The notes below the pieces were generated by a model. That model worked only from the letters and a program-made list of their open reading frames with translations, did not search any database and was not told the origin of the DNA. DNA of 46,653 bases. It comes from an uncultured Erysipelotrichaceae bacterium (lineage in GTDB: Bacteria; Bacillota_I; Bacilli_A; RF39; UBA660). The position numbers were made by a program, and so were the translations under genes. This document shows, one piece after another, positions 15,044-36,808 of this stretch. The DNA lies in the NCBI GenBank assembly GCA_902793375.1, contig CADBDE010000009.1:1-46653 (forward strand), read 5' to 3'. Within the stretch, counting starts at the first letter, position 1; the number at the start of each line of letters is the position of its first letter.

Positions 15044-15062
15044 AAAGGATTATTCATCCTTT
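15044..15062 (-). terminator. Terminator closing the giant-repeat-protein operon
   Basis: Hairpin arms AAAGGAT / ATCCTTT with the loop GAATA on the minus strand, running into eight T residues directly after the stop codon of the coiled-coil gene. Confidence 0.8.
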
Positions 15063-16576
15063 TATAAACCATTACTATCTAATACTTTTTTTAATTCACA
15101 AGCATCATTTATTTTTTCAAAAGATTGATTACTACTATTTATATAATGGTTAACCAATACTTTATTAACTAATGATATTAAACTATCTATATTAGTATCT
15201 TCTAATTGTTCTCCTGTAATATTTATATTCATTAGTTTATATTTATCAAGTATTATTGTTACAATATCAGAATTATCACTAATAGTAATATTATTAATTA
15301 TATTATTATTTGGATACAATATAAATTCTTTTAATTCTTTTAGTTTATCATCTATTTCTTGATTTGTAATTTCTTCATTTTCTTCTTTTAATAATTTACC
15401 AAAATCTATTTTATAAGAACTTACAATTTTTAAAGCATCAAGTAAAGTTGAATTATCAGATAATCTTGTAGCAATTATTTCTTTGAATTTTGCATCATCA
15501 TATTCTTTATATAAATCTTTTAATTCTAATAAATTAGTATTGATCTTATTATAGAATTTTTCAGTCTTTGCTCTACTTTTAAATAAGAATTTTCTAAATC
15601 TAATTTTTTTATTTAATTTTTTAATTCTCTTTTCACTCTTTTTAATTTTCTTTAATAAAGATTTTGTTAATGATTTATTACTCTTATCTAAATAAATATT
15701 TTTTACTTTCTCTAGTATACTTTTAAATTCTAAATATTTTTTATATTCGTATAATGAATATGAAAGTTTTAATATATTATTTATTTGATCATCATTTTCT
15801 TCTTCTTTTAAAAGAATTGATGATTTTAACTTAGATACTTTAGAATCTTCATATTCTTTAATATCTAATTCTCCTTCTAAAAACTTATCTTGTAATATTT
15901 TTATATCACTATTTTCTTGCTGTAAATATTTTGAATATATATATTTATAATGCTCTTCTTCTTTTGAAAGATCTGTTCCCTTTATTTGATTTGAACAGTA
16001 CTTTTCAAAAGCTTTTTTATTTTTAGAATATAAGTGTCTTAAGCATATATTAATATATTCAAATAAATTAGGACATTTCCAATATAAATTATCAAATGTT
16101 TCCTGTAATTTTTCTAAGTTTTTATTATTTAATTTAAAAAACTCAGTCATATATGTTTCAACTTCTTTTCCATAGTTGAAATCTTTTTCTGTTAGGGTTA
16201 CAAGAGCAGTATTAAATATTTCAAGAGAAATTCTTATATCATTATTAACCTGAAATAAATCGTTTTTATAAAATTTTCTTAAATCATTTAATACTTCATT
16301 TAAACCAGTTTTTTCATAAGAATCATTATATTGATTTAAAAATACAAGTTTCTTTTCTGATTTATTTAAATAGTCATTTAATAATTCTATTTCACTATTT
16401 CCTTCTACTATTATTCCTAAATATCTTTTTTTAATTTCTTTTAATGCTTTTTCTCTTTGTTCTTGCATTTCTTGCTTCATTACCAATGCTTTTTTCTTAT
16501 ATTCTCTTGAGTTTTTAACATTAGTTCTTGGCAAGACTTCTAGTAATTCTTTATATTGTTCTATCTTCTTACTCAT
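15062..16576 (-). CDS. Hypothetical coiled-coil cytoplasmic protein
   Basis: A 504-residue, Lys/Glu/Asn-rich protein without signal sequence or membrane span. Long helical heptad-like stretches are visible (residues about 15-60 and 285-350, the latter very basic with KKIKKSEKRIKKLNKKIRFRK). I recognise no catalytic motif. It is the last gene of the operon headed by two TasA-like genes and the giant repeat protein. Its ATG at 16576 overlaps the stop of the preceding 50-residue gene as ATGAGTAA, so coupling is likely; the longer in-frame start at 16591 has no better ribosome binding site. A cytosolic partner of the surface system is possible but unproven. Confidence 0.7.
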   Translation of the reverse strand: MSKKIEQYKELLEVLPRTNVKNSREYKKKALVMKQEMQEQREKALKEIKKRYLGIIVEGNSEIELLNDYLNKSEKKLVFLNQYNDSYEKTGLNEVLNDLRKFYKNDLFQVNNDIRISLEIFNTALVTLTEKDFNYGKEVETYMTEFFKLNNKNLEKLQETFDNLYWKCPNLFEYINICLRHLYSKNKKAFEKYCSNQIKGTDLSKEEEHYKYIYSKYLQQENSDIKILQDKFLEGELDIKEYEDSKVSKLKSSILLKEEENDDQINNILKLSYSLYEYKKYLEFKSILEKVKNIYLDKSNKSLTKSLLKKIKKSEKRIKKLNKKIRFRKFLFKSRAKTEKFYNKINTNLLELKDLYKEYDDAKFKEIIATRLSDNSTLLDALKIVSSYKIDFGKLLKEENEEITNQEIDDKLKELKEFILYPNNNIINNITISDNSDIVTIILDKYKLMNINITGEQLEDTNIDSLISLVNKVLVNHYINSSNQSFEKINDACELKKVLDSNGL

Positions 16577-16721
16577 TATCATCACCAACATCCGTCTTCT
16601 TTAGTTCTTCGTCAACCATTTTTAGGAATGCTTCTATTTCGCGATAATAACTTAATAATTCTTGATTATTTAGTTTTTCTATAGATACATCTTCATCGAC
16701 TATTACGTCATTTGACTTCAT
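16569..16721 (-). CDS. Hypothetical small acidic protein
   Basis: A 50-residue acidic protein, MKSNDVIVDEDVSIEKL at the start, with a predicted helix (NNQELLSYYREIEAFLKMVDEELKK) and an acidic tail GDDNE. AGGGTGA lies about seven bases before the ATG at 16721; the longer frame reading to 16778 lacks such a site and would add a spurious hydrophobic head. It sits 43 bases after the giant protein's stop and is coupled to the coiled-coil gene. It may be an adaptor for that protein. Family not recognised. Confidence 0.6.
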   Translation of the reverse strand: MKSNDVIVDEDVSIEKLNNQELLSYYREIEAFLKMVDEELKKTDVGDDNE

Positions 16722-16764
16722 AAAAATCACCCTAACTATTAAATTTATTATAACATGAATTAAT

Positions 16765-19700
16765 TTATTTGATAACAATATATTTATATACGTTACCTAT
16801 TTGAGTATTATTATCATACAATGCAAATACAATTTTGTAAGTACCTGATATTAGGTTTTCTTTTAAATGGAAAGTTTTTGTCATTGTATTAGTTGGTGGA
16901 TTAAATAGCATATATACCTTTTGTAAATTAGTATCATCTAAATTATCAGAAACATAATCTTTTAAATCTACTAAATTATAATTATTTGAATATACTTCAC
17001 TGTAATCTCTTCTATATAAAGATACTCTTAGATTTGGATTTAATAATCCAGAAGAATAGTTAATATTAAATGTTATAGTATTTGTATCTAAATCATTTTT
17101 TCCACTATCCTTGTTTATAACTAATTCTCCATCATTTGCAGTTGCAACAAGACCATATATAGTATTTTTAACAACAAAAGGAAGTTCTATAGAATCAGAA
17201 GAAGTAAGTCCATAATAAATACCATCAGGAGATGCAAATGATTCTAATAATAATTTATAATTTCCTGAAGCTAGATTACTTCCTTCAGTATTTATAACAA
17301 GCCTTGTTGATACATTTGCAATTCTCTCTGCAATATTAATTCTTGTAGTTCCATCAAATCTAGGATAATATGTATTATTTCCAATTGTATAAGAAAGACC
17401 TAACAAACTTGAACCATTTACTACATTATTGTTTGAATCCAATATAGTTATTTTTATACCTGATTTATAGTCATAATAATTGGTATCTACAATTGGATTT
17501 GATGAAATATTTTGTTGTATAAAATTAGTAAATACATTTACGTGAACTTGTTCACCAATATAAACATCATTTGATCTCATATTAGCATCTATATCAATTA
17601 CCGAATCTTTATTAGCATATAAATTGTAGAATAATTGTTGTTGTTCAACGCCTATAACAGACATTACAACTTCATCATCACTACTTCTAAGCTCTAATAA
17701 TAATGATTTTTCTAAAACATCTTCTTCTATTCCAGATTCTTTAAAATCTACTATAAATATAAATTCTTCTTCTGCAATATGAGTAGATGTATCATAGTAT
17801 AATTGATTTTTTGCAACATCATCATAATGATTATTTGAATTTGAACTACCCATTTTTACAAAATTAGATAGATTGTATGAAACATCACCATGATTTGCAA
17901 GTTCTAATTGTTTTGTTTGATAATCATTATCTGTAACAACATAATAGTAATATTCTGGAGTTGTTCCACTTAATAAATCAATCATAGTAATTTTTGTATT
18001 TGCAGGGAAGTTATATGTTGAAGAAAGTGCTCTATGATATCCGCTTCTATATATTGTTTCATTACTTTCTACAAATAATGAATAATATGTAGAAAATGCA
18101 CTTGTAGCAGTAATATTAACTGTACTTGGAGCAAACATTTCATAAACCTTTCCTTGAGTAATTGTTCCTTCATAATCATTTGTAGCGTATATAGCTCTAT
18201 TTAAATTAACGTTTATATTAATTCTCTTTATTTCATTTTCTAGATCATTTATTGCTGTTATTGCAACAAGTGAAATTGTAACAGTACCCATATCACCACT
18301 TGTTTCTAGATTTTTTGAGTGATATAAGTAGAACAAGAATGTTGGAACAATGTTCGAGTTTTCACCAATATAATTAGTTGTTCCACTAAAATATGATTCA
18401 TTTGATAAGAATGTTGTTTTACCAATTGTAATCCATCCATTATCACTTGATTTCATAACTAAACTCATCTTATGATCTGCTATTGTTCCACTACTTGCAA
18501 TTCTTGGAATTTCACTTTTTTCAACTAAATCAATATCACTATTTAAATCACTATAGTTAAATCCAAGTACAGAGAAAGTAGTATTAGCTTCAGAAAAATT
18601 GATAAGAGGCAATTCATAAGTACCTAATGTTGAGTATTTTGATGCTGTTAAAGTTATTTCATAAGCAGTTATTTGTTCTCCAATTGCCCAAATATAATAA
18701 TTTGAATCTTCTGGTGTTGGAACAATATATTTAACATCTACTTTATCTATAGTATCCTCTCTTGGAAAATTACTATAGAACCCATCTTGTTCGTAATTAT
18801 GATTAGTATGATGTAGACCTAATACATAACTTCCTTTTGTAAAGTAAACTATTTCAGAAGAAGGTACCGTACTTTGTCCATCATAATTTGTATTATAAAG
18901 TGCTTTAAACACTTTTCCATCTCTATCATGTAAATACATTCCAAAGAATGTCATACCACTTACTTCACCATATGCAGTAATATTTTCGTTAGTAGCAATA
19001 TTAATATTTTTACCTTCATAAATATATAGTTTATTATTAACATTTCTTGAAATCGTTCCATCATTATTGATAGTTACAGTAGCTTTTCTTTCAATTCCGT
19101 TTGATAAAAGTCCACTAGTAAATTTCTTAACTAAGTTAGTACCTGTTTCAAGATAAAGTGTTGAATTATTTAATAATTTTATTTCATCTAATCTACTTAA
19201 AGAGAATAATACATCAGAGTATTCATTAGTTCTATCTGTTGCTCCAACAAGTTCAATAGCTGAGTTATTTAAAGTAACTAATGATGCTCTTTGAATAGAA
19301 ACATTCTTTTTATAATTTGTTTCTGTTCCATAATTTTTTATATTAACACTACTAAATCCACTTGTACTTGAAGCATTACCACTTCCGAATATTGAACCAT
19401 CAATATCAAAAAGACTATGATTTTGACCATCAATATTAATTGTTATTCCCTCAGTAACACTTATGAATGAGAAGTCATAGATTTCTGAACCATGTTCATT
19501 TGCTTCTCCTCCTCCAAACACTGTTCCACCAATATGAATATTTCCTGTATTTATTGTGTTATTAACTACTTCTTGTCCAATATTTACTGTAACCGTTCCA
19601 TAAAGTACTGAAGTATTGGCTCCACCATAAACATTTCCTCCACAAGTAAGCCCTGCGATGTTTACGACACTAGTAGAATCATTATTTTCCTCAGTTCCTG

Positions 19701-22700
19701 TTGGAGCAGCATTTCCTCCACCAAATACGTGACGAGTTACATTTGTTGTTCCTCCAACATTTAATAAAGTATTACCATATACTGCCGCAGTATATCCATT
19801 TCCTCCAGCAAATAGACTACTACCAAGAGTTGAATCAATTACTTTTACAGTTGTATTTCCTCCAATAGTACCTAGATTTCCTCCTCCATATACGTTTTCA
19901 TTTGCTCTTACCCTATTTAATGAAAGAATGGCATTATTTGTAACTGCTGCTTGGTTTCCTCCACCAAAAATAGAACGATTAATTACTGCGCCTTCAATTT
20001 TTGTATTTGTTGAGCCAGTAACTGCATAGTTTCCTCCACCATATACATATTGAATATTTCCACATTTTATATCTATATTAGCATCAGTTGTTTGTCCACC
20101 TTGATTATTACCACCATAAATATTACCTATAGTTGGTGCATTATTAGAAAATGGAATATTAATATTACTTGTAGTAACATTTCCTTGAAGATTTGATCCA
20201 CCAAATATGTTAGTAACATTTAAATTTCCACCAATAGTTACATTTGATGTAGTAACAGAAGCTTTATTTCCTCCACCATATACACTATTAAGAGTAACAC
20301 CACTTACGTTTATATTTGAAGTTTCAGTACTTGCTTCATTTCCTCCTCCAAATACATTAGTAGCATTTCCTCCTGTAATTGTAATATTTGTAGTTGTTGT
20401 ACTTCCACCTAAGTTATTTCCTCCATAAATTGTTCCTACACTTCCGCTTGTTTCGGTAATAGTTGAAATTGGAACTATTCCACTTTGATTAGATCCTCCA
20501 TATATATTCGATGTCGATCCTCCAGATAAAGTAACAGTTGTTGATGTAGTTATTCCAGCTTGGTTTCCTCCACCATATATATTTCCAACATATCCGCTTT
20601 GATGTGTAACAGATGTCGTATCAACAGTTGCAAGATTTCCTCCACCATACACGTCATTTATAGACCAAGAGTTAATTACTATATTAGATGATCCAGTAGC
20701 GGCTTCATTACCACCACCAAACAGAGTTGTAATACTTGCTCCATTTACATTTATATTTGTTTCAGTTGTGCTTCCTCCTAAGTTGTTTCCTCCATAAATT
20801 GTTCCAACTGATCCATTAGTTGTATTTATTGTGGACATTGGTACTGTTCCACTTTGATTAGATCCACCATAAATATTTGTTACTGTTGAACCATTTAATA
20901 TAGTTGTTGTTGAGGTATTTATTCCTGCTTTATTTCCTCCACCATATACATTTGTTGAAGTTCCTCCATTTAAGTTAATTTGAGTTGTTCCTGTAGTTGC
21001 TTCATTTCCTCCACCAAAGATATCAGTCATTGTTCCACCATTTATAATTATGTGTGAGGCATTAGTACTTCCTCCTAAGTTATTTCCTCCATAAATTGTA
21101 GTTGCAGATCCACTTGTTGTTGTTATATTTGAACTAGTTACTGTTCCACTTTCATTTGATCCACCAAATAAATTTGTTATATTTGAACCATTTAAATTAA
21201 CTGTTGTTGAAGTATTTATTCCTGCTTTATTTCCTCCACCATAAACACTTGTAATAGTTCCATTATTCAAGTTAACTGTTGTTGTTCCTGTTGTTGCTTC
21301 ATTTCCTCCACCAAAAACAGTAGTTATACTACCACCATTTATTGTTAAATGAGAGTTTGTTGTACTACCTCCTAAATTATTTCCACCGTATACAGTTGTT
21401 GCAGTTCCACTTGTTGTTGTAATGTTTGAGTTTGTTACTGTTCCACTTTGATTAGATCCACCAAAAATACTTGTTACAGTTGATCCTTGAAGAATAACAT
21501 TTGTAGTAGTAGCATTTGCAGCATTTCCTCCACCATATACGTTTGTTGAAGTTCCTCCTGATAAGTAAACTGTACTTGTATTGGTTGGTGCTAGATTTCC
21601 ACCACCATATACATTTGTTGAAGTTCCCCCATTTATTCTTACTGTTATTGTTCCTTTTGGTGTTCCTTTTTGATCATTACCACCATAAATATTAGCAGCA
21701 TTTCCACCATTAACAGTTACATTTACATTTCCTAAAACATATGGAGTATTAGTATTATCTCCTTCTCCGCCACCAAATACAGAACCAGATAAATTTCCAT
21801 TATTTATTGTTACATTAGTATTACCATAAGTAGTTCCATTTGCTGAATTACTATTAACTATTCCAAGAGCACTTCCACCATATATATTACCTTGTATAAC
21901 TGGAGTATTTAAAACGTCATTAGTTCCAATTGTTATATCAATATTATTAGATACAAATGTTGGAGCTCCTTTTCCACCACCATAAACATTACCTGTAATA
22001 GTTCCACCAGTGATACCTATATCTACTGATCCATATACATCTCCTTCAGTATTAGATCCACCATAAATATTACCAATAGTTCCACTAGACATATTAATGT
22101 CAATAGTACTTGAACCTCTATAGCTATTTTGGCTAAATCCTGCTGATTTAGAACCTCCATAAACTTCTGCAATATTACCATCTAAAATATCAATTACTGT
22201 TGAAGAAGTTCCAGCATATTGAGTACCAGTAGAACCATAGTTACCACCACCATACACTGATCGTCTTATTGTTCCTCCATTGATGATAACGTGAGAGTTA
22301 TATACTGTTCCTTTTTGATCATAACCACTACGTCCTCCACCAGCACCATATACTGATCCTGATTCAACTCCATAAAGTGTATTGTTCGTTCCATCTCCAA
22401 CAACCACAGTACCACCAACATAAACTAAAGTAGATCCTTGAACTACTCCATCACTTGTATCAGTAGTACTATTACTATCTGATCCTCCCAATACACCGAA
22501 TTGAACAGTTCCTCCAGTAACGTTAATTATACGATTTCCTTTTGTTGTAGAGTGTCCTGCTCCTCCATATATTGATCTTACTGCTCCTCCACTCATTCCA
22601 ATATAAGTTGAGTTTGTTGTATTTGTACCATTGTATCCATATCCTCCAACAACAGTATTAATTTGTCCACCTTCTATTTTAGCTCCTGTAATTGAGTTAA

Positions 22701-25801: not shown

Positions 25802-26558
25802 TATCTTCTTCACTTTCTTTCTTCTCTATTCTATTAACATTTGGAAGAATATGTTCTTCACGAATATTCATGTGCATTTTAATGTCTCCACCTATTATTG
25901 CATTAATACAATCAGGGTCATCTCCTTCAATCCAAACAACAATTGTGAATCTATCAATATCAAGAGGTTTGAAATCTTTTACTTCTTCTAATACTGCAAT
26001 ATGTTCTTTGCTTGATATTTCGTTATCATAGAATGCAACAGTTCCTTCTTCTTCCTTTTTAGTATCTGCATTCTTTTTTGCATAAACTGTTCTCTCACCA
26101 TTTCTAAAAATCATTATTCTAACAGCTTCATCAACATTTTTTATAACATCATCAATTACTACTTCATACCAATAATTAACTGTTTGAACGCCTGTATTTC
26201 CTAAATAGAAAGTATATGCTATATAATTATCACCATTATGTGATCCTTCATACTTATCACTATCGATGTCCTCTGGTAACCACTTAACAGAAATATTATC
26301 CATAAACTCTATTTCATCAGCATACAATTTTCTTTTTACTTCTTTATATTCTAGATTATCAAATAATGCTAAACTAGTTGATAAATCATCATTATTATCT
26401 AGACTAATTGTAAACTTTCCACCATTAAATAGAAAAGCCAATATTATAAAAACTACTGTTAAAACAGCAAAAATACAACAACTTATTATCATTGTTATAC
26501 GCATTAGTTTTTTTCGTCCTTTTATTCTATTTGCAGTTACTAAAACATCCTTTGCCAT
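25794..26558 (-). CDS. TasA-like secreted protein, first gene of giant-protein operon
   Basis: A 254-residue exported protein. A basic head (RIKGRKKLMRI) precedes a hydrophobic stretch (residues about 20-45, MIISCCIFAVLTVVFIILAF), so it may stay anchored. The body has LWLP-like strands (DNISVKWLPEDIDSDKYEGS), YTFYLGNTG and the family mark VWIEGDDPDCINAIIGGDIK. The tail is acidic (KKESEEDNE). It lacks the AWFT segment of its neighbours. It is related to the two larger WIEG-DC proteins but shorter. The ribosome binding site before MAKDVLV is weak. It lies under a promoter with an inverted repeat and heads a five-gene operon. Confidence 0.8.
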   Translation of the reverse strand: MAKDVLVTANRIKGRKKLMRITMIISCCIFAVLTVVFIILAFLFNGGKFTISLDNNDDLSTSLALFDNLEYKEVKRKLYADEIEFMDNISVKWLPEDIDSDKYEGSHNGDNYIAYTFYLGNTGVQTVNYWYEVVIDDVIKNVDEAVRIMIFRNGERTVYAKKNADTKKEEEGTVAFYDNEISSKEHIAVLEEVKDFKPLDIDRFTIVVWIEGDDPDCINAIIGGDIKMHMNIREEHILPNVNRIEKKESEEDNE

Positions 26559-26682: not shown

Positions 26683-27261
26683 ATGGATAAGAAATACATA
26701 TTACTTATATTATCTTTTATTTCACTTTATGTTACTATCTGTTTAGCGAATGAAACTTATGCCAAATATCTTTCATCTGCAACCTCTACATCATCTACAT
26801 CTATTGCACGATGGAAAATTTTAGTTAATAATGATGATATCACTATAGGAGCAACATCAACTTCACTAATTACTCCACAATTTCCTGGAAATGATAATAT
26901 AAGTGAAAATGTTTTAGCTCCTAACGCAGAAGGTTTTTTTGATTTAGTTATTGATGCAAGTAATATAGATGTTTCCTTTAGATATGAAATTTCTATTGCT
27001 CCAAACGAAAATAGTCCTGTAACAGAACTGATTGCTACAAAATATCAAATTGATGGTGAAGAAGAAATAGAATTTGAAGAAGGAGAAAATACGATAGAAG
27101 GATCTTTTAATTTAAATGATGAAAATAGAACAACGAATATTCGAGTTTATATAAAATGGGATGATACATTAAACTTAATGACAAATGCACAAGACACAAA
27201 TACAACCGTAGGAAATCAAGCAGGATTATTAGATGTAACTGTATATGCAATTCAAATATAA
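26683..27261 (+). CDS. TasA-like secreted protein on the opposite strand
   Basis: A 192-residue exported protein and the only convincing plus-strand gene in the window. The signal region YILLILSFISLYVTICLANE is followed by TYAKYLSSATSTSS and IARWKILVNN, the TasA-type start of the mature chain. FDLVIDASNIDVSFRYEIS and the late strand NIRVYIKW are shared with the gene at 35691-36290. GGGAGG eight bases before the ATG is a strong ribosome binding site. It converges on the gene at 27288-27914 and they share a terminator. Divergent expression from the big operons suggests its dose is set separately, perhaps as a minor or alternative subunit. Confidence 0.85.
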   Translation: MDKKYILLILSFISLYVTICLANETYAKYLSSATSTSSTSIARWKILVNNDDITIGATSTSLITPQFPGNDNISENVLAPNAEGFFDLVIDASNIDVSFRYEISIAPNENSPVTELIATKYQIDGEEEIEFEEGENTIEGSFNLNDENRTTNIRVYIKWDDTLNLMTNAQDTNTTVGNQAGLLDVTVYAIQI

Positions 27262-27262
27262 A

Positions 27263-27283
27263 ACACTTCATATTATGAAGTGT
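27263..27283. terminator. Shared terminator between convergent TasA-like genes
   Basis: Hairpin ACACTTCA / TGAAGTGT with a five-base loop lies between the stops of the plus-strand gene and the facing minus-strand gene. It has eight T residues on the plus side, and a weaker T tract on the minus side. Confidence 0.8.
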
Positions 27284-27287
27284 TTTT

Positions 27288-27914
27288 TTATTCGTTCGAT
27301 TGAATAGCAGAAATTTTAACAACTATTTCCAAACTTGGTTCACCTGGATGATTAGATGAATAATTATAAGATTCATTCCCCCAATAAGTATCTAATGCAT
27401 CATTATTAGACTCAAAAGGCCAATTAACATTTATAGAAAATGTAGTATTACCAGAATTTGTTGAAAGTATAGTATTAGTCAATGAAAATGTAGTATGAAA
27501 CGGAAACTGATTTGCTAAAATACTTTCCATTTGCCCACTTGAGTAGCTTCCACCTTCAATATCATAAACATTATTAAGTATTCTTACATTAACTAACTGA
27601 TAATATATTTCTGCACTTCTTTCTCCTAGATTATACGCTGTAATACTATCGCTATAATCTGGCATTCCTGGGTATAAATTAGGAATATAAAAATTAACAT
27701 ACTCTTCTACTGTATTATCTTCATTAGTAAACAATATATTCCATGCTTCAATATGCGCAGTTATTCCTGTTGAAACTTTAGTAGCATAAATAAACCAAGC
27801 AAAAGTACTTGAAGCAAAAGTAATCAAAAGTAAAAGAATTGTAGTTATTCTCGTTCTTTTAAAAATAATCTTCAATAATTCTATAAATTTATTCTTTTTC
27901 TTAGAATTATCCAT
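27288..27914 (-). CDS. TasA-like secreted protein
   Basis: A 208-residue exported protein with a long basic head (KKKNKFIELLKIIFKRTR), a hydrophobic core (ITTILLLLITFASS) and the SipW-class segment TFAWFIYATKVS. IEAWNILFTNED and INVNWPFESNNDA are the mature-chain landmarks. It follows the SipW-type peptidase gene after two bases, with AAGGAG upstream, and is the last gene of the six-gene operon. Probably it is a direct substrate of that peptidase. It is less similar to the other TasA-like proteins than they are to each other. Confidence 0.8.
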   Translation of the reverse strand: MDNSKKKNKFIELLKIIFKRTRITTILLLLITFASSTFAWFIYATKVSTGITAHIEAWNILFTNEDNTVEEYVNFYIPNLYPGMPDYSDSITAYNLGERSAEIYYQLVNVRILNNVYDIEGGSYSSGQMESILANQFPFHTTFSLTNTILSTNSGNTTFSINVNWPFESNNDALDTYWGNESYNYSSNHPGEPSLEIVVKISAIQSNE

Positions 27915-27916: not shown

Positions 27917-28585
27917 CTACTCCTTATTTTCTTTTATTTCCTCTTTTACTTCCTTGTTTTCATTAACTTCTTTTGTAGGTGGAGCAGTTAAAGGTGCTTC
28001 CAAAGGTTGTTGCCCTGCATCTGCAATTTCTACAAGAGAAGATACATCTACTACATCTGATTCTTTTTTCTTTTCACCAAATAAATCCCTTGTATCTAAA
28101 AATATAAGAATAGTAAATGGAACAAAAATAATTATATAAAATAATATATTATTATTCATTAATTTACTAAATAAACTTAATACAATTAATCTAGCCGATA
28201 CCTTTCCATATACTTGCTTATATTTTATTGGTGGATCTTCTAAATCGTTATTAATTCCTTTTGTAACAATTGACTTATCTGATTCAATTCTAATTACCCT
28301 ATGGGTAACAACTTTATCTTTATATGAGTCAACCTCTCCAATATATACAAGATCATCACCTTCATGAATGTCTTTTTCTTCAATTTCTTTAGCAAGGAAC
28401 ATATCTCCTACTTCATATTCTGGTAACATACTTTCTGAAATAACAGTATATACACCATAACCAAATAATCTTAATTTATTATTAGTAACCTTTTGAATAA
28501 TAACTACTATCAAAGCAACAATTACAAATGCTGTTGATAATACTTTTAATATTTTAAATAATAATTTTAGTATTTTTTTTAACAT
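27917..28585 (-). CDS. SipW-type signal peptidase I (ER type)
   Basis: A 222-residue membrane protease with an N-terminal helix (residues about 15-32). It has Ser52 in VISESMLPEYEVGD, His95 in VVTHRVI, a TKG box at 108-110, a C-terminal helix (about 143-160) and a Pro/Glu-rich cytosolic tail. Use of Ser-His rather than Ser-Lys marks the SipW/Sec11 class, which processes TasA-like subunits. The first Asp of the usual TKGD box is Ile (I111), while the second conserved Asp position, D117, is kept. This is unusual and may shift or weaken activity. It lies between the DUF2357-like gene and a TasA-like gene; AGAGGTAG precedes the ATG. Confidence 0.88.
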   Translation of the reverse strand: MLKKILKLLFKILKVLSTAFVIVALIVVIIQKVTNNKLRLFGYGVYTVISESMLPEYEVGDMFLAKEIEEKDIHEGDDLVYIGEVDSYKDKVVTHRVIRIESDKSIVTKGINNDLEDPPIKYKQVYGKVSARLIVLSLFSKLMNNNILFYIIIFVPFTILIFLDTRDLFGEKKKESDVVDVSSLVEIADAGQQPLEAPLTAPPTKEVNENKEVKEEIKENKE

Positions 28586-28593: not shown

Positions 28594-29826
28594 CTATTCT
28601 AGTTCTATAGAGTTAAACTTATCTCTATAGTTTTTAAAAGCTGCTTTAAATTTATCAACTATTTCTTTATCATTAACTACACTCTTATATTTAATAATAG
28701 TATAGTATTTATCTATTAAATCTAATATTTCCTTTTTATCAATAGAATCCATTTCAAGAAGTCTTTGAAGCATACTATTTACTATTTTTTTAGATATTTC
28801 TTTCTTTTGTTTTTTGGCTTTTTTAGTACCTTGATTTGTATATAAATCAAGTATTAGATGTTCTAATAAGAATATCTCATCAGAATTCTTTTTTGCTTTT
28901 CCTTCTACTCTTTCATTTTTTGAATCTTTTACATTATTCATTTCAGCATTCATATGTTCTTGCATATAATTCCAAAGTTTTAATGCATACTGAAAGTTAG
29001 TGTTTTTTAATATAACATTTGTCTTTTTTATTGGTGATGTAACTAATGCAACATGAAGTTTACTTAATGTTTTATATACTTCTGATGAAGTTAAATCAGT
29101 AATTCTATTTTCAAGTTTTGTAATACGTTCCATTACACTCTCTACACTATTTTCATCTTGTGATGCACTATCATCTAATGAGCTAGAAAAATTAATGGAA
29201 ATTTCATACTTGGTATTTCCAACTTTTGTTGTACCAGTATATTTTAATTTTTTATCATCCTTTGAATTAGATACAGTTTCTAATCCCTTCTTTTTAAACA
29301 TTACGTATGTTTTCATATTTTGAATTAAACTATAAATAAATCTGTTTTCATATGTATTAAAACTTTCTTCTTTATTTATATTTAAAATCTTTGAAGGCTT
29401 TATATCTCCTGTTTCTTTATCATATTCTTGAATTAAGTTAGTATTTCTTGATAAGTGTTTTATACTTTCAACTGTAACTCTTCTAGCTAATTCAATTTTA
29501 ACTATATCCTCTTCATTAACAATGAAACGATTAGGATTCCTTAAAATATTATCTATATATCTAATTGTTTCCTCCATCATTGTTAACCATTCAAGATTAA
29601 ACTCCGTTTTGTCGTAATCAACATTAATATCCAAAGATGATGATAATTCTTTATAAAAGTCTTCAATTTCGGAATCATCGCATTCATTATATAGATTTGC
29701 TACTTGTAATTCTCCTACTCTTGACGTTTCTTCTAAGGCTTTTTTATCTATTTCTACAGGAACTTCTTCATCGTTTTTAATATCTTTAGCCTCAATTTCT
29801 TCTTTTTTTTCATCTTTTTCTTCCAT
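28594..29826 (-). CDS. DUF2357-like partner of the AAA+ ATPase, no nuclease motif seen
   Basis: A 410-residue acidic, helical, soluble protein. The stretch FNTYENRFIYSLIQNMKTYV and the later TNVILKNTNFQYALKLWNYM resemble the DUF2357 domain that accompanies McrB-type ATPases in restriction-like systems. The PD-(D/E)XK nuclease domain that often follows is not visible; instead the C-terminus is a Lys/Glu helical bundle. It lies 22 bases downstream of the ATPase gene and eight before the signal peptidase gene, so it is co-expressed with both. The family call is by eye and moderate. A role as adaptor for the ATPase is inference. Confidence 0.6.
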   Translation of the reverse strand: MEEKDEKKEEIEAKDIKNDEEVPVEIDKKALEETSRVGELQVANLYNECDDSEIEDFYKELSSSLDINVDYDKTEFNLEWLTMMEETIRYIDNILRNPNRFIVNEEDIVKIELARRVTVESIKHLSRNTNLIQEYDKETGDIKPSKILNINKEESFNTYENRFIYSLIQNMKTYVMFKKKGLETVSNSKDDKKLKYTGTTKVGNTKYEISINFSSSLDDSASQDENSVESVMERITKLENRITDLTSSEVYKTLSKLHVALVTSPIKKTNVILKNTNFQYALKLWNYMQEHMNAEMNNVKDSKNERVEGKAKKNSDEIFLLEHLILDLYTNQGTKKAKKQKKEISKKIVNSMLQRLLEMDSIDKKEILDLIDKYYTIIKYKSVVNDKEIVDKFKAAFKNYRDKFNSIELE

Positions 29827-29848: not shown

Positions 29849-31399
29849 TTATGTTAATTTCTTAAGTCTTAATACGTACTCTTCACATTCTTTCATTTTT
29901 CCTTTTCCAAAAGTACTATCTAAGAATTCTACAAAACCATCTATTTCATCTCTTATATATGAGATGTTTAATTGTTCAAATTTTCTTAAAATCTTTTTAG
30001 CTATGAAATAGTCTACTCCTTCTATTTCATCTCCTCCGCAAGCTACATAAACTGGTACAAATTTCTTCATATGAGATACAATACGGTTACCAAATGCTAT
30101 ACGGAAATGTTGTATAACATAATCATCCATCTGTTCAATCTTATCTAGTGTATCTTGTGACACAGGATTCTTTTCCATTGCATCTTTAAACAAAGAATTA
30201 ATATAACTAAAGTTTATATCTTGTGCTGGAATTTCTTCAGGAGTAAATGCTTCACCTTTTTCATTAATATCAATTGGCATGGCACGGTCATATACTTTAT
30301 CTGTAACCATAAATGTTGAATCATCGTTATTAATTGTACCTATATACCATACGTTTTCAGGAATTTGAAGTTTTCCTCCCTTAATTCTTTTTGGGTCATT
30401 CTTCCATGAACTAGAAACTAATTCAACAATCCACTCATCATGGTTAGGCATTTCTAGTATAGATAGCATTTCTGCAAAATAATACTCAACACGTGAGATA
30501 TTCATCTCATCCAGAATTACTGTATAAACATCATCAGTATAACCAGCTCTATATAACTCTTTTAAAACTTCTGTTTCATTAAACTTTTTAGTAAACTCGT
30601 TGAAGTAACCAAACAACTCAGTCCTATCACGCCATGATGGTTGAACCGAAGCAATACATGAGTCATGTTTTAAAAACTTACCCCAAGCATATGCAAGTGA
30701 TGTTTTACCTGTTCCAGAAATACCTTGTAAAATAACAAGTTTAGTTGAAGCAAGTGCAGATATAAACAATCTTATCATTTGAGGTTTATAATATAGTTTT
30801 AACTGTGATGCGGCAAAATTTCTAAAGTTACTACACAATTCTTCCAAATCAAATGAATTTCCATAATTTTGAATTTTATAATTAGCAAATTCTTCATCAA
30901 GTTCTGCAAGTTTTGAAAATCTTGGAGCTTCAACTGGTCCAGTATCTTCTTCTCCTGTTTCACCTTCAGCAGTTTCTCCAGTTCCTCCACCTGCTGCAGC
31001 TGCTGCATCCTTAGGATTTATTCCAAGGTGAGATACTTTCATAGCAAGTATTTCATCTTTTTCTTTTATAAGAGTTGCTACTTTATTATTTAGTTTTCCA
31101 ACTTCTTCTAATAATGATTCTTGTTCAACAATAGTCTTTCTAAATCTTAAATATTTCTTAATTATAAAACCTGCAATAACAACTATTCCAGCAATAAGAA
31201 TTAGTAAAAGTAAAATAGCTATCACAACAAATAACCATTCTGGTCCACTAAAATCATCTTTATAAAATTGTATTACAGATATATATGCTTTAACATTAAA
31301 TATCTTTCCAATACCATTTACAAATCCCATTAATATATCTAATACACCATTAAAAAATTGGGATAAGAAATCATATAAAAATTTAAAGAAAGTATCCAT
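29849..31399 (-). CDS. Membrane-anchored AAA+ ATPase, McrB/MoxR-like
   Basis: A 516-residue protein. An amphipathic or hydrophobic start leads to a strong helix at residues 56-80, then a coiled coil (about 83-120), a Gly/Glu/Ala linker (132-155) and the ATPase. Walker A is GISGTGKT (226-233), Walker B ILDEMN (295-300), sensor 1 TINN (355-358), and an Arg finger is plausible in YDRAM (370-374). The ILDEMNISRVE arrangement is McrB-like. It is tightly linked with a DUF2357-like gene, a SipW-type peptidase and TasA-like proteins, so it could power surface-fibre assembly or quality control at the membrane. A defence role, as in McrBC relatives, cannot be excluded. AGGTGAAG precedes the ATG. Confidence 0.88.
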   Translation of the reverse strand: MDTFFKFLYDFLSQFFNGVLDILMGFVNGIGKIFNVKAYISVIQFYKDDFSGPEWLFVVIAILLLLILIAGIVVIAGFIIKKYLRFRKTIVEQESLLEEVGKLNNKVATLIKEKDEILAMKVSHLGINPKDAAAAAGGGTGETAEGETGEEDTGPVEAPRFSKLAELDEEFANYKIQNYGNSFDLEELCSNFRNFAASQLKLYYKPQMIRLFISALASTKLVILQGISGTGKTSLAYAWGKFLKHDSCIASVQPSWRDRTELFGYFNEFTKKFNETEVLKELYRAGYTDDVYTVILDEMNISRVEYYFAEMLSILEMPNHDEWIVELVSSSWKNDPKRIKGGKLQIPENVWYIGTINNDDSTFMVTDKVYDRAMPIDINEKGEAFTPEEIPAQDINFSYINSLFKDAMEKNPVSQDTLDKIEQMDDYVIQHFRIAFGNRIVSHMKKFVPVYVACGGDEIEGVDYFIAKKILRKFEQLNISYIRDEIDGFVEFLDSTFGKGKMKECEEYVLRLKKLT

Positions 31400-31416: not shown

Positions 31417-32385
31417 TTATACTATTATTATTTTATCATTTAATGCCTTATTAGTACAATATTTTGAATCCTTATCAAGAATAATATATTTAAAAATATT
31501 AAACACAAACAAGTCTTCTACTTCTTCTTCGATACCTAACTCCATTGCAAGAATAAAGCCCTCTTTCACCATGTCTTTAACATCATTTCCATACTTACAA
31601 TAATCTTCATATTTTATCTTAAAAATTGCTTGATTTTTGAAACAATCATTATTAAATGATCCTAGTAAATTTTTTAGTCCATCCTTGTTTTCAAACAAAC
31701 TATTAGGAAAATCTAATAAGTAATTTTTATCAAAATTGCACTCTTTAATATCTTTTAATATTTTTCTAGTTATTAATTGATATTCAACAAACATTTTATC
31801 TTCACTAATAGAACTACTATCAAAAACCCTATCTATTGCATAATCACTATATATTTTTGGAAAGTTAATATTATGTTTTAATTCAACATTAACTACATTA
31901 TCTAGGCTAGTAATATTCTCTGTTATAGAGAAGTCTTTAGTATCAAATATTTTATAAAATTTTTCTCTTTTCTTATTTGTATTATTAATAAATTTAGATA
32001 TATTTTCTTGGAATAAATCATCATCCATTTTAAATAATTTCATTCTATATTTTTTTAAAAGTGAAATAAAAATTTGATCATCTATAAACAAAACGCCATC
32101 AAAATATAATATAAATGTGAATATTAAATAATTTTCTATTGCCTTTTTCTTTTCTTCTTCAGGAATTCCATCAGTTATATTAAAAAAAGTTTTTTCAATA
32201 TGATTCATTATATTATCTTCAAACGAAATATCATTATCACTATTGTAATCATAATATCTATCATCTATATATACATTTAATAATTCAGTAAAAATACTTT
32301 CATCATAATAATCAGATAATACTTCTTTAGCAAATAAAGTAAGATTGTTTTTCTCAAAATTCAAGAATTCTTCTAACATGTTCAT
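31417..32385 (-). CDS. Hypothetical acidic protein of the AAA+/SipW operon
   Basis: A 322-residue, Asp/Glu/Phe/Asn-rich cytoplasmic protein without signal or membrane helix. I do not recognise the family; no catalytic motif stands out. An acidic helical body with repeats of the type DDxFxEN is seen. AGAGGTG about seven bases before the ATG at 32385 favours this start over the GTG three codons earlier; that site overlaps the stop of the preceding membrane protein. It lies 17 bases before the ATPase gene. Conserved position between the surface protein and the ATPase would argue for a link between the two. Confidence 0.7.
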   Translation of the reverse strand: MNMLEEFLNFEKNNLTLFAKEVLSDYYDESIFTELLNVYIDDRYYDYNSDNDISFEDNIMNHIEKTFFNITDGIPEEEKKKAIENYLIFTFILYFDGVLFIDDQIFISLLKKYRMKLFKMDDDLFQENISKFINNTNKKREKFYKIFDTKDFSITENITSLDNVVNVELKHNINFPKIYSDYAIDRVFDSSSISEDKMFVEYQLITRKILKDIKECNFDKNYLLDFPNSLFENKDGLKNLLGSFNNDCFKNQAIFKIKYEDYCKYGNDVKDMVKEGFILAMELGIEEEVEDLFVFNIFKYIILDKDSKYCTNKALNDKIIIV

Positions 32386-32397
32386 TTTTATCACCTC

Positions 32398-33324
32398 TTA
32401 TTGAGCACTAAATGTTATTATTGGAGTACTTGTAACAAATGGATAAGTATAATTGTTATTTGTATTCAATTTATAAAATCTAACCGCATTACTTGATAAT
32501 GCATCTATTCCAAAAGTTACACTATTTATATAATCATAGCCGTCACCCAAAACAGTAGAAGATGTATTATAAGCTTGTAATACGGCTTCACTTGTCATAT
32601 CAAGTCTTAATAGACTTGGGTTAAATGAAAGCGTAATGACAGCAGATGCACACTTTCTTTTGTTTTCTGGAGACAATGATAAGTATTCAGATATTTCGAT
32701 TTTATCATTTTGATTATATGTTCCAAATGGTGTTAATACCTTGTAGTAATCAAGTGTATTAGTTATATTAAAATCTAAATAAGCTCGTCCAGGCTCATCT
32801 AGAATTTCATAGGATAATCCAATCTCACCAACATTAATCTTAAATTTACCACTTATTGTTTTTGTGTAAGGTGAAGTTGCACTAGCTGATACTTCAAGTT
32901 CAATGAAATCACCCTCATATAAATTTATGTTTGGAGTCATTGTAATTGTAAAACTGTCAGTATTAGTTCCATTCATAATTAACCCAGTTTCTTTAGATGC
33001 GACACAAGTAACATTTGATGAACATTCGTATTCAATACTATATGTGATATTATCAGGTGATGCTATTAAATTATTCTTTTTACTATCCATATTAAATGTA
33101 ATAGTAACTGGTTCAACTCCTGACCAATTATCTAGCTGATAATATGATTCATTGTCACTCATTTTATCACTATTAAAGTAAAACGATTTAGTACTTAAAT
33201 AATAATTTCTAAGGCCATTATATATAAAACGACCATAAGAAAGAGTAATTGATAAAACAATTAGAACAATAGCAAAAATAATTATATGTATTTTCTTTAT
33301 TTTTCTAGATTTCTTCTTTTTCAT
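32398..33324 (-). CDS. Membrane-anchored extracellular beta-sandwich protein
   Basis: A 308-residue protein with a basic head (KKKKSRKIKK), one hydrophobic helix (about residues 12-30) and a SYGRFIYNGLRNYYLSTKSF junction. The extracellular part has two or three Ig-like beta domains; ITYSIEYECSSNVTCVAS holds a Cys pair and ISGKFKINVGEIGL is a typical strand pair. It is distinct from the TasA-like proteins but shares the SipW-class exported look (hydrophobic core, then aromatic plus basic residue). First gene of the six-gene operon with the ATPase. GGAG seven bases before the second of two adjacent ATGs suggests 33324; 33327 is possible. Likely a surface component or minor fibre subunit. Confidence 0.75.
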   Translation of the reverse strand: MKKKKSRKIKKIHIIIFAIVLIVLSITLSYGRFIYNGLRNYYLSTKSFYFNSDKMSDNESYYQLDNWSGVEPVTITFNMDSKKNNLIASPDNITYSIEYECSSNVTCVASKETGLIMNGTNTDSFTITMTPNINLYEGDFIELEVSASATSPYTKTISGKFKINVGEIGLSYEILDEPGRAYLDFNITNTLDYYKVLTPFGTYNQNDKIEISEYLSLSPENKRKCASAVITLSFNPSLLRLDMTSEAVLQAYNTSSTVLGDGYDYINSVTFGIDALSSNAVRFYKLNTNNNYTYPFVTSTPIITFSAQ

Positions 33325-33400
33325 CATAGTACTCCATCATACATTATTATCATATATAAGAGTATCATATTTTGAGTTATCTTACAATAAAACAATAAAA

Positions 33401-33430: not shown

Positions 33431-33440
33431 TAGTTTAATC

Positions 33441-34466
33441 TTAGTCACCTTCTCCGTTATCTGTTGTGATTTGTAAATCGTAAGCTATATCTCCACCAGA
33501 TGCTGCGTTTTCACAGTCAACATCTTGTCCTTCGATCCACATATAGATTCTTACTTTAGTTACACCTGTTTGTAAACTAAAGATTTGTTGTTGTTCAGAG
33601 AAACCTGCAATTGTTGAATAATCAATTTCAACATCTTCGAAGAAATCACTATATGTAGATGAATAATCTGTTGCATTGCTTTGACGAACTAAAACATTAT
33701 CAGTTGAAGCAATAGGTGCTTTAACTCCAGAGTATTCTAATAAATCTCCATCTGTTTGTGTAGTAGTTACTCCATAAGTATCACGAGCATGTGATACAGC
33801 AGCTGCTGTATGAACATCATAGTTTGGTTCCCAAATATATTTATGAGAAGAAGTACCGTTATTTAATCCTTGGATAGTTTCAACACTTGATCCTGAAGCT
33901 GTATTTCCTAATACTACAAAACCAATTCTTGAAGCATTTTTAATTCCTTTATCTGCATCTCCAATTGATCTTACACCTGAATTAGTTGTTAAGAATATAT
34001 CAGTTGCAGCATCAACTTTAAAGAATAAATCAAATGCTATAAACTTACCAGTTGTACCATTTAGTTCAGTACTTTTTGTAGCAGTAAGAATATATTCACC
34101 ACCACTATTAGTTCCAACTGTACCATAGTACATTTCCATCATACCGTTTTCGTCAATATTACCAACAGTAGAAACTGGTTCTAATTGTGCTGGTATTTGA
34201 TTAACTGCATCACCATAAGCACCTGCTTTAGCTCCAGTTATATCAGTTGTTTGAATAATTGATTTCCAATTTGTTCCATCTGCTGATATTTGAATACCAT
34301 TTTGAGCAGCAACGTTAACAGTTAATCTACTTACTTGAACTGTTTGGTTAGCTGTGAACCATGCATATGTTGATGATCCAAATAATACCATAGTAAATAG
34401 TAATGATATTAATAATAACAATAGTCTTCTTTTGTTACGACGACCTTTAACATTTTTATTTTCCAT
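33441..34466 (-). CDS. TasA/camelysin-like secreted fibre protein (candidate major subunit)
   Basis: A 341-residue exported protein. RRNKRRLLLLLISLLFTMVLF plus SSTYAWFTANQ is a SipW-class signal. The mature chain has NGIQISADGTNWKS, KFIAFDLFFKV, YIWEPNYDVHT and MWIEGQDVDCENA, each nearly the same as in the gene at 24803-25801; the C-terminus ends QITTDNGEGD. The strongest ribosome binding site of the locus (GGAGGG), its own TTGCAT-17-TATACT promoter and a strong terminator suggest high expression, so it may be the major subunit. The preceding gene encodes a SipW-TasA fusion that could process it. Confidence 0.88.
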   Translation of the reverse strand: MENKNVKGRRNKRRLLLLLISLLFTMVLFGSSTYAWFTANQTVQVSRLTVNVAAQNGIQISADGTNWKSIIQTTDITGAKAGAYGDAVNQIPAQLEPVSTVGNIDENGMMEMYYGTVGTNSGGEYILTATKSTELNGTTGKFIAFDLFFKVDAATDIFLTTNSGVRSIGDADKGIKNASRIGFVVLGNTASGSSVETIQGLNNGTSSHKYIWEPNYDVHTAAAVSHARDTYGVTTTQTDGDLLEYSGVKAPIASTDNVLVRQSNATDYSSTYSDFFEDVEIDYSTIAGFSEQQQIFSLQTGVTKVRIYMWIEGQDVDCENAASGGDIAYDLQITTDNGEGD

Positions 34467-34514
34467 TTTTATTCCCTCCGTTTACACCTTTTATTCCTTT
34501 GTTAGTATAGTTGA

Positions 34515-34543: not shown

Positions 34544-34586
34544 TAGGTTTGTCAATATTTGTATATAGGTTTACACAAAAAAGTGT

Positions 34587-35684
34587 CTATATCTTTTGTT
34601 TTGATAAAATGTTAATCTCTATACTCTCACAAATTCCTTGTAATTCATGGCTTCTTTGCGCTGACGGATACTTAATTGTCAACTTGTAAAGCTTTGTATT
34701 ATCATCGGTATATTCAAAAGTTTCACTTGACGTTTTTATTTCTTTGAAATATGTTCCATCATCATCATTTATTATATTAGAACTCAATACAACATCTGTA
34801 TCTGTTCCTGAAACCACTTCATACAATTCATACTCAAGTGGCAAATTAGTTGTTGCACGTATTACAACTTCATAATCAAGAGTTACTTCTGATCTATTTG
34901 TTCCGTCGGTATTAGAAACACTAAATGTATAAGAGTTCGTGTCTCCTGGCTTCATTTCATTTAATGTTATGTTTTGATGAGTATAAGTATCATTTACTAA
35001 ATAAAATGCAATATCTATTGGAGCATTTCCACTAGCTTCAGTTCTAAACCTTGATAATGTAAAAGGTATCAAGAAGCATAGCATAACTAGTAGAACAAAT
35101 AATATTATGATCTCTAGTTTTAATCTATTATTATTTTTTATTAATTCCATAATATCAATCCTACCATTATTTTTTATTTTTTCTTTTTTAACCTCATTCT
35201 TAAACGTTGCCGCACACCAACACATAAATGTTATGGTTATAAAACACATAATCATTACTTTTGGAGTAGTAAGTACTTTAGCAAGTATAAATGCCCTTGA
35301 GATTGTTTTAACTGTTTTACCTATTATCTGATCCTTATTAATTGGATTATCTACTGTATTATTAGCATCTCCCTTAGTAACATAGTAATTATCATTTATT
35401 TCTACAATTCTATGAGTAATAATTGAATCATTTTCTTTAAAAGATATTATATCTCCAACATTATAATTAGTATCAAGTTTTACAAGAATCATGTCTCCTT
35501 TTTCAATTGCTGGTGACATACTTCCACTTATTATTTCAAAAAAAGTATATCCAAATATATTTGGATAATCTTTATGTAATATTTTTATAGATACAAAATT
35601 ATAAATTGCCATACTCATTATAGAAAAGGTAAATATAATTAGTAATACAGTTAATGATTTAGAAACAATTTTACGTATCTTCAT
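34587..35684 (-). CDS. SipW-type signal peptidase fused to a TasA-like domain
   Basis: A 365-residue natural fusion. Residues 1-165 are a complete SipW-type peptidase: an N-terminal helix (10-30), Ser55 in ISGSMSPAIEKGD, His91 in IITHRI, the TKGDANNT box with Asp106 and Asp112, and a C-terminal helix (142-160). A linker then leads to a second hydrophobic core (about 188-207) with FTLSRFRTEASG and PIDIAFYLVND, the TasA-like signal and mature start, followed by a beta domain with the strand SNTDGTNRSEVTLDYEVVIR. The peptidase could cut its own fused subunit or its neighbours. AGGAGG precedes the ATG. I see no frameshift, so the fusion looks real. Confidence 0.88.
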   Translation of the reverse strand: MKIRKIVSKSLTVLLIIFTFSIMSMAIYNFVSIKILHKDYPNIFGYTFFEIISGSMSPAIEKGDMILVKLDTNYNVGDIISFKENDSIITHRIVEINDNYYVTKGDANNTVDNPINKDQIIGKTVKTISRAFILAKVLTTPKVMIMCFITITFMCWCAATFKNEVKKEKIKNNGRIDIMELIKNNNRLKLEIIILFVLLVMLCFLIPFTLSRFRTEASGNAPIDIAFYLVNDTYTHQNITLNEMKPGDTNSYTFSVSNTDGTNRSEVTLDYEVVIRATTNLPLEYELYEVVSGTDTDVVLSSNIINDDDGTYFKEIKTSSETFEYTDDNTKLYKLTIKYPSAQRSHELQGICESIEINILSKQKI

Positions 35685-35690
35685 AATTTA

Positions 35691-36290
35691 TTAACCTCCT
35701 GTATATTCAGTTAAAGTATCACCGTCAACATATTGAGTTACATTAACTGATACAGGAATCATTATTTGATTATTCAAAACTGTTCCTAAACTAGAATCTT
35801 TTTCATTATTATTATCATCATTAATCCATTCTATATACACTCTTATAGTATTCGTTTCTCCATCATCTATATCATCAAGCGTAATTACATTACTATAAGT
35901 GTATTCAGCGGTTCTCACTATATCTTTATCATCAATCTCTTTAATCTCAGTAATTACAAATTGATCTGGATCTAATACAGAAAAATCAAAAGTAATATCA
36001 TATCTAATAGAAGTATCTGCATCATTTGGGTCAATTTCTATATCAAAATAACCATTTAATCCAGGGGCTGCTTTACCTTCTTTAACATATTCAGAAGTAC
36101 TCCAAGTAAAATTATTTATTGTAAATTCAGAAGTACTACCTGATAACATATTATCATTTACTTTAATTTCCCACTTTGCAATTGTAAGCTCACTTGTATT
36201 AGTTCTTTGACTTTCAAATAAAGCATAACTTCCTACGAATATCATCACTAAGAAAAAGAATGGTGCAAGCACCATTGTATATTTCTTCAT
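35691..36290 (-). CDS. TasA-like secreted protein
   Basis: A 199-residue exported protein with a short head (MKKYT), a hydrophobic core (MVLAPFFFLVMIFVGSYALF), then TIAKWEIKVNDN, the TasA-type mature start. YFDIEIDPNDADTSIRYDIT and NTIRVYIEW match the plus-strand gene at 26683-27261. Its start overlaps the degenerate peptidase stop as TAATG, and its stop is just before the fusion gene. Probably a minor fibre subunit. The signal has SYALFES rather than an AWFT segment. Confidence 0.85.
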   Translation of the reverse strand: MKKYTMVLAPFFFLVMIFVGSYALFESQRTNTSELTIAKWEIKVNDNMLSGSTSEFTINNFTWSTSEYVKEGKAAPGLNGYFDIEIDPNDADTSIRYDITFDFSVLDPDQFVITEIKEIDDKDIVRTAEYTYSNVITLDDIDDGETNTIRVYIEWINDDNNNEKDSSLGTVLNNQIMIPVSVNVTQYVDGDTLTEYTGG

Positions 36291-36808
36291 TATTTCTTTC
36301 TAACTTCCATAACAATTGCATATATTTCATATATAAATAGAAGAAATAAAGGAAATACAACAATTAGCAAAAATCCCCATTTAGATTGTAATATATACAA
36401 TACTTTTCCTAAGAATGATAGTGTTTCAGCTGTCTTTTCAGATCCTAAAACATATTCACTTGATACAAGAGTATTATCTCTTAAAGAATATGTAACCTCT
36501 GAATCATTTACTTTTTCTTTTCTAGTGACTTCCGTAAATTTAATTTTATGATCAGCAGAGTAAGTGTCATAATAGAACACTTTATCTCCTACTTCAACAT
36601 CTTCATCTGTAACTGGCTTTAATACAAGTATAGAATTTTCTTTATAATCAGGTGCAAGTGAATCATCATCAAGAGCTATATAATACTTCCCTAAAAATTT
36701 AGATACACCATATTCATTTTTGTTAAACAACAATCCAGTTGTAAACGCTATAACTACCAAATAAATGCATATAAAAATGCCTAATACTATTTTTAATACT
36801 TTTTTCAT
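36290..36808 (-). CDS. Degenerate SipW-type signal peptidase homologue
   Basis: A 172-residue membrane protein with two helices, residues about 8-27 and 143-162. The layout is that of a SipW-type peptidase. The catalytic Ser region reads LDDDSLAPDYKENS, which keeps Ser50 in the S-x-x-P spacing, but the THR(V/I) His is replaced (KIKFTEVT, Phe91 at the aligned position; His87 lies four residues earlier). The TKGD box has become SLRD. Loss of the general base predicts little or no peptidase activity, so it could be a chaperone or regulator. It heads the four-gene unit, with AGAGGTA before the ATG, and is translationally coupled to the next TasA-like gene. Confidence 0.75.
   Translation of the reverse strand: MKKVLKIVLGIFICIYLVVIAFTTGLLFNKNEYGVSKFLGKYYIALDDDSLAPDYKENSILVLKPVTDEDVEVGDKVFYYDTYSADHKIKFTEVTRKEKVNDSEVTYSLRDNTLVSSEYVLGSEKTAETLSFLGKVLYILQSKWGFLLIVVFPLFLLFIYEIYAIVMEVRKK

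Follow-up and report, generated by a model that had tools for sequence, protein, structure and literature searches.

What might a membrane-anchored motor of the McrB type be doing among genes for surface fibres? The question is raised by a locus at 15062–36808 of the window (that is, the whole 46,653-nucleotide stretch analysed, from contig CADBDE010000009.1), which comes from the 1.59 Mb genome of an uncultured Erysipelotrichaceae bacterium (GTDB class Bacilli_A, order RF39); its nearest relative in the compared set, G016, belongs to the same genus. TasA-type fibres are processed by the signal peptidase SipW and assemble without a dedicated motor. A preliminary description had listed TasA/camelysin-like proteins, SipW homologues, an ATPase, a DUF2357-like partner and a giant repeat protein in tightly packed units, and all of these components were indeed found as long open reading frames at 15062–36808, tightly packed (Table 1; gene names, from SipA to CytO, were assigned in this analysis). 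We think it reasonably probable that this is a CoCoPALM-type locus (that is, a membrane McrB-like NTPase with a DUF2357 activator and no nuclease) devoted to TasA-like surface fibres.

Association of the motor with SipW and TasA-like genes

We examined 160 motor loci, comprising 40 from the order, 40 from the class and 80 from named genomes (the last ranked by motor similarity, and thus a biased sample that overlaps the order set), and counted SipW if it lay in the same stretch, at most ~20 kb. A DUF2357 gene adjoins the motor gene in 154 of the 160 loci (40/40 order, 37/40 class and 77/80 named), typically 10 bp away in the order loci, and SipW lies near the motor in 138 (30/40, 31/40 and 77/80, respectively). 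The named set includes Ruminococcus albus and Oscillospiraceae; the co-location extends across the class and into Clostridia. The preliminary description reasoned that the link would be chance if such pairs were usually found away from SipW and TasA genes; with SipW near the motor in most loci and the exceptions clustered in the motor tree, this is not the case.

Full-length motor relatives occur in ~40 of 146 order genomes, and the presence of the fibre genes follows them closely. Homologues of the two main subunits (TasD/M) were found in 30/40 motor-positive and 1/106 motor-negative genomes (Fisher p 1.8e-21), and those of ExpL in 29/40 and 1/106 (p 1.9e-20), with both p-values inflated by shared ancestry. 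Conversely, the motor is present in 30/31 TasD/M-positive and 29/30 ExpL-positive order genomes, against 40/146 overall.

Fusions provide a second line of evidence. SipW is joined to CytF in 22 proteins, to TasJ in 2 loci (L157 and L187) and, through a coiled coil, to DUF2357 in 2 proteins, one from an uncultured Ruminococcus and one from R. albus KH2T6; these three kinds of fusion provide a link independent of gene order. The KH2T6 protein (L213:11634–14609) joins DUF2357 through a long coiled coil to a SipW of the active type, in a single chain of 991 residues, and its locus also encodes ExpL, SipW and the motor. The link of the motor/DUF2357 pair to SipW and TasA-like genes is not chance.

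The motor and its DUF2357 partner

The preliminary description called the ATPase (AAAG) McrB/MoxR-like, and of the two identities only the former held. The best solved relatives of AAAG in a PDB sequence search are E. coli McrB structures (E 9e-7); given this match and the presence of the N-x-D signature, a MoxR-like identity was rejected. Walker A (GISGTGKTS), Walker B (LDEMN), the N-x-D motif (TINNDD) and DKVYDR show little or no variation among 27 order relatives and 32 across the class; in the 32 diverse motors the invariant positions comprise Walker A, Walker B, NxD and arginine residues, and N357 and D359 are invariant in both sets. In McrB the equivalent motif serves GTP hydrolysis, which makes GTP the expected nucleotide; judged from its motifs, AAAG is probably a GTPase. 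AAAG has the N-x-D spacing of the branch named NxD by Bell et al. 2024 (PMC11090510). The N terminus is a hydrophobic transmembrane segment followed by a helix, with an FtsL-like match after the segment (residues 63–116) that is below the cut-off (E 0.014), and a domain profile search found no nucleic-acid-binding N-terminal domain. The AAAG core also matches PADLOC candidate defence profile PDC-M26A (E 4e-35), and automatic annotation might therefore label the locus a defence system.

The partner, DUFH, matches PF09823 (DUF2357) above the cut-off (E 1.1e-12), in agreement with its first description as DUF2357-like. Profile searches gave no match to a PD-(D/E)xK nuclease, and no conserved D...ExK set was found in 81 homologues, in which the conserved positions (YENR, PI..TN, W80, P144 and K146) are those of the DUF2357 region. 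Relatives outside the order carry long K/E-rich tails in place of a nuclease, and the low-confidence DUFH model (predicted template modelling score (pTM) 0.44) ends in a short helical C terminus. No credible solved relative was found by PDB sequence search.

SipW-type peptidases and exported proteins

Of the three SipW homologues described initially, two keep the catalytic Ser/His/Asp and one does not. SipI and SipTasC exceed the TIGR02228 cut-off (E 9.9e-20 and 6.3e-22, respectively), and both are below the strict SipW equivalog cut-off NF046067; Ser/His/Asp are retained in 108 of 113 peptidases at the SipI position and in the N-terminal half of SipTasC, ahead of a transmembrane segment at 185–215. 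SipA is below both cut-offs (NF046067 E 2.8e-8; TIGR02228 E 4e-5), and its catalytic columns read S/E/-. Given this loss of His and Asp (and of Ser as well in many relatives at the same position), SipA is a predicted pseudo-peptidase, of which we found no mention in the literature searched.

The six or more exported proteins were first described as TasA/camelysin-like, a likeness that lies in the signal peptide and probably the fold but does not extend to family membership: Pfam searches gave no Peptidase_M73 (PF12389, TasA/camelysin) match in the genome or locus proteins, and PDB sequence searches with TasD/M, TasJ and TasK did not return TasA. The SipW-type signal peptides of TasD and TasM score just below the TIGR04088 cut-off of 19 bits (17.5 and 16.6 bits), and 5 of 29 relatives match this profile at E ≤0.01 (best 5e-5). 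TasD and TasM are 50% identical, and a search of the genome with TasD returned only itself and TasM, plus a weak match to ExpL. Profile comparison confirmed the homology of ExpL to TasD/M (hhalign 99.5%, E 4e-22), with which it shares a C-terminal W-x-E-G-x-D-x-D-C signature. Given its plain transmembrane segment and the lack of an ...A-W-F cleavage motif, ExpL should remain in the membrane. A second family comprises TasJ and TasK (97.7%), of which TasJ is also related, less strongly, to TasD/M (82%); ExpE has weak profile similarity to TasK/TasJ (60–70%), and genes at the TasB position in loci L141–L220 match the TasK profile.

The TasM model, predicted with confidence, is a beta-sandwich (predicted local distance difference test (pLDDT) 87.5, pTM 0.84). 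Among ~1000 chains compared with VIA-align, the top matches were the Sulfolobus 0406 filament (Z 5.2, root mean square deviation 4.6, 135 aligned) and the TasA fibre 8aur (Z 4.7, deviation 3.9, 132 aligned), both of them donor-strand fibres, with FimA pilins just below near Z 4. The 2,674-residue BigN was described as a giant solenoid; clear repeats (24–25 residues, GGGN, 99-residue super-period) span residues ~1060–1720, a region predicted to be a beta-solenoid. Most relatives have giant proteins encoded next to the locus.

Motor loci without SipW

In a tree built from 133 motor cores by a quick method, with Shimodaira–Hasegawa-like approximate likelihood ratio test (SH-aLRT) support, the SipW-less exceptions fall in a few branches and not at random. 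Those of the order form, together with L063, where a SipW homologue lies nearby, one supported clade inside the order radiation; in the SipW-less loci CytF and the DUF2357 partner are retained, and a 420-residue membrane protein, the identity of which as TasA-like received no support in profile comparison, is found instead. Loci of the cadherin type (a giant protein, a degenerate GGDEF/EAL protein, the motor and DUF2357), with cadherin-like giants of ~2,100 residues in L124, L125, L128 and L132, lie within the clade of SipW-linked class loci. The double-motor loci L136–L140, which have repeat giants, form a branch of their own, a further branch with a 600-residue motor again has an adjoining SipW, and a distant pair of a ~900-residue McrB-like NTPase with several transmembrane segments and a ~520-residue DUF2357 protein (L262–L269) is widespread in the class and mostly without SipW. 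From these positions the SipW linkage looks old in the radiation, with several changes of cargo; the SipW-less loci are derived branches with other surface proteins.

In L125 (1–7794) and L132 (12051–20000) the cadherin-like giant stands next to the motor/DUF2357 pair and a membrane protein with degenerate GGDEF/EAL, and intact-looking GGDEF/EAL proteins precede ExpL in L106 and L118; such neighbours hint at cyclic-dinucleotide control. In L136 (6806–11984) and L140 (7832–12426) motor genes flank DUF2357 and have identical or nearly identical AAA cores with different N termini, as if the cores were kept alike by gene conversion.

Organization of the locus

The genes are transcribed in the orders SipA, TasB, SipTasC, TasD; ExpE, CytF, AAAG, DUFH, SipI, TasJ; ExpL, TasM, BigN; and CytO, with TasK alone on the plus strand, an orientation opposite to the rest of the locus here and in nearly all relatives. 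Gaps are 3 bp (ExpE–CytF), 17 bp (CytF–AAAG), 22 bp (AAAG–DUFH), 8 bp (DUFH–SipI), 2 bp (SipI–TasJ) and 13 bp (TasM–BigN), and SipA/TasB and ExpL/TasM overlap by 1 and 20 bp, respectively. Terminator-like hairpins 3' of TasD (33429–33399) and of TasJ fit several transcription units. CytO profiles match at the corresponding place in many relatives.

Table 1 Features of the locus, in window coordinates
Feature	Position	Strand	Description
SipA	36290..36808	-	SipW-type signal peptidase homologue, predicted pseudo-peptidase
TasB	35691..36290	-	Exported TasA-like protein, TasK family; single N-terminal hydrophobic segment
SipTasC	34587..35684	-	Fusion of active-type SipW, membrane segment and TasA-like exported domain
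TasD	33441..34466	-	Main TasA-like subunit; SipW-type signal peptide ending ...STYA-WFT
ExpE	32398..33327	-	Exported/membrane-anchored; in the order, conserved upstream of the motor at a distance of a few genes
CytF	31417..32394	-	Cytosolic, directly upstream of the motor; SipW fusion in 22 related loci
AAAG	29849..31399	-	Membrane-anchored McrB-type AAA+ NTPase; one transmembrane segment (49–86), then helix
DUFH	28594..29826	-	McrC-like DUF2357 partner without recognizable nuclease domain
SipI	27917..28585	-	SipW-type signal peptidase with S52/H95/D117; follows DUF2357 directly in most loci
TasJ	27288..27914	-	SipW-dependent-type exported protein (...STFAWF); last gene of motor operon
Terminator-like hairpin	27260..27286		12 bp stem, between convergent TasJ and TasK
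TasK	26683..27261	+	Exported, TasJ-related; between TasJ and ExpL
ExpL	25794..26558	-	TasD/M paralogue, N-terminal transmembrane segment, no SipW-type cleavage site
TasM	24803..25813	-	Main TasA-like subunit; beta-sandwich model
BigN	16765..24789	-	2,674-residue exported repeat protein
CytO	15062..16591	-	Cytosolic helical protein; adjoins TasD/M, SipA or giant gene in relatives

A possible regulator of the locus is an XRE-type protein (36928–37533) that has membrane segments and perhaps a zinc ribbon; its gene ends ~120 bp ahead of SipA, the first gene. Outside the conserved locus, 7340–9169 and 9240–11171 encode similar neighbouring exported proteins with a single transmembrane segment and weak HYR-domain matches. 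A mobile-element origin received no support, as base composition is unremarkable and plasmid and phage matches are partial.

Relation to known systems

CoCoPALM was named by Bell et al. 2024 (eLife, PMC11090510) in one paragraph of a restriction-system census, with a fuller account promised, as an NxD McrB GTPase with an FtsB-like membrane part linked to signal peptidases. The present locus shares with CoCoPALM an NxD McrB-like AAA+ protein, an adjacent DUF2357 McrC homologue and signal peptidase neighbours, and the transmembrane segment of AAAG with its weak FtsL-like match may correspond to the FtsB-like membrane/coiled-coil part. CoCoPALM McrC homologues are also fused to coiled coils; DUFH has a short helical C terminus in its model, and relatives outside the order have the K/E-rich tails. 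The preliminary view that such a system is not described thus holds only in part: the name exists, whereas the main text of that study does not contain TasA-like cargo, a pseudo-peptidase, an uncleaved anchor paralogue, SipW fusions or order-wide statistics, and TasA and SipW are absent from it. What is new here is the TasA-like cargo, the uncleaved ExpL, a pseudo-peptidase of the SipW type, the fusions and the absence of a nuclease motif. Our literature searches on SipW with McrB, or on TasA with McrB and pilus assembly, found no description of such a system.

The B. subtilis tapA–sipW–tasA operon and TasA/CalY/CapP of B. cereus share with this locus an endoplasmic-reticulum-like SipW-type peptidase and, probably, SipW-type signal peptides and beta-sandwich subunits, but have no motor, DUF2357, CytF or giant protein; this locus, in turn, has no recognizable TapA, and Pfam does not place its subunits in the TasA/camelysin family. 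McrBC Type IV restriction systems (E. coli McrB/McrC) and CoCoNuTs likewise have an McrB-type AAA+ protein adjoining a DUF2357 protein, whereas here no DNA- or RNA-binding domain or PD-(D/E)xK nuclease was found and the motor is membrane-anchored and secretion-linked. The best structural neighbours of TasM include donor-strand threads and bundling pili of archaea (Sulfolobus 0406 and Pyrobaculum), which differ in the low Z, the lack of sequence similarity and the domain of life.

A model for the locus and its alternatives

At the level of sequence, the components, gene order, co-inheritance, fusions and invariant NTPase motifs are firm, and the identity as a CoCoPALM-type fibre locus is strongly supported; its cargo is very probably a TasA-like surface fibre. 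We suggest that a GTP-driven membrane machine licenses the processing and assembly of these fibres. The motor may form a ring under the membrane, held by its transmembrane segment and switched by the DUF2357 partner, with CytF and the SipW enzymes (directly fused in some species) coupling it to the processing of TasD, TasM and TasJ. SipW would free the N-terminal strands of the subunits outside the cell, where they could polymerize by donor-strand exchange, as published for Bacillus TasA (PMC9674648). ExpL, uncleaved, would keep its transmembrane anchor as the cell-side base, and the SipA pseudo-peptidase and BigN might contribute a scaffold and outer layer. Here the ExpL–TasD/M homology, the loss of SipA catalytic residues and the absence of a nuclease motif are, as read from the genes, secure; GTP use, ring formation, donor-strand assembly and ExpL as base are inferred, and the most speculative step is a role for NTP hydrolysis in driving or gating the release and assembly of subunits.

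Several observations weigh against this model. Bacillus TasA fibres form without such a motor, and none is described for them in the TasA papers searched. The motor/DUF2357 pair occurs without SipW in 10/40 order and 9/40 class loci, such that the motor does not require SipW, and SipW itself is far commoner than the motor (209/296 class genomes). Foldseek returned nothing for the TasM model at E 0.001 and the structural match to TasA is weak (Z <8), and the likeness of TasM to donor-strand fibres is therefore suggestive only. For DUFH, Foldseek and VIA-align matched no known fold; McrC was not among the entries for this model, and DUFH may nonetheless have an McrC fold.

One alternative is that motor and partner are a general regulatory or positioning switch for surface proteins (for example, FtsB/FtsL-like, at the division site), with TasA-like fibres as one cargo. 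The SipW-less pairs beside cadherin-like giants with degenerate GGDEF/EAL, the repeat giants beside paired motors and the weak FtsL-like match would fit such a switch, which we nevertheless consider rather unlikely: most loci are linked to SipW, the tree puts the cadherin-type branch among SipW-linked loci (suggesting a change of cargo and not a general role) and the fusions involve SipW, not division proteins. An anti-phage, Type IV restriction-like system that uses the membrane and lies near surface genes by happenstance would account for the McrB/DUF2357 ancestry, the PADLOC match and the naming of CoCoPALM in a restriction-system census (PMC11090510). We regard this as improbable given the partner without nuclease domain or motif, a membrane anchor where McrB carries its DNA-binding domain, the strict co-inheritance with and fusion to SipW/TasA-like genes, and the partial phage and plasmid matches to the motor, all with less than 80% coverage. 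That the genes are merely co-regulated neighbours, with fibres forming by themselves after SipW cleavage and the motor acting elsewhere, would agree with the Bacillus tasA operon, in which only SipW and TapA accompany TasA (PMC9674648), but order-wide co-inheritance and three kinds of fusion are hard to explain by co-regulation alone, which makes this very improbable.

Returning to the motor as part of a fibre machine, its consistent position beside, and occasional fusion to, SipW and TasA-like genes in uncultured gut and rumen bacteria and in R. albus indicates that a phage-defence-type motor was probably reused for surface structures. More tentatively, and with doubt on our part, single-membrane bacteria might use a nuclease-less, McrBC-derived membrane GTPase ring to control SipW processing and the building of donor-strand fibres on an uncleaved anchor, and its relatives would serve other giant surface proteins. 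If the model is correct, TasA-type fibres would have in this McrBC-type motor the first component linked to them that uses energy, and very common bacteria of gut and rumen would have recruited a defence-type nucleoprotein motor to surface biogenesis, an idea that the cultured R. albus, with its DUF2357–SipW fusion, makes testable.

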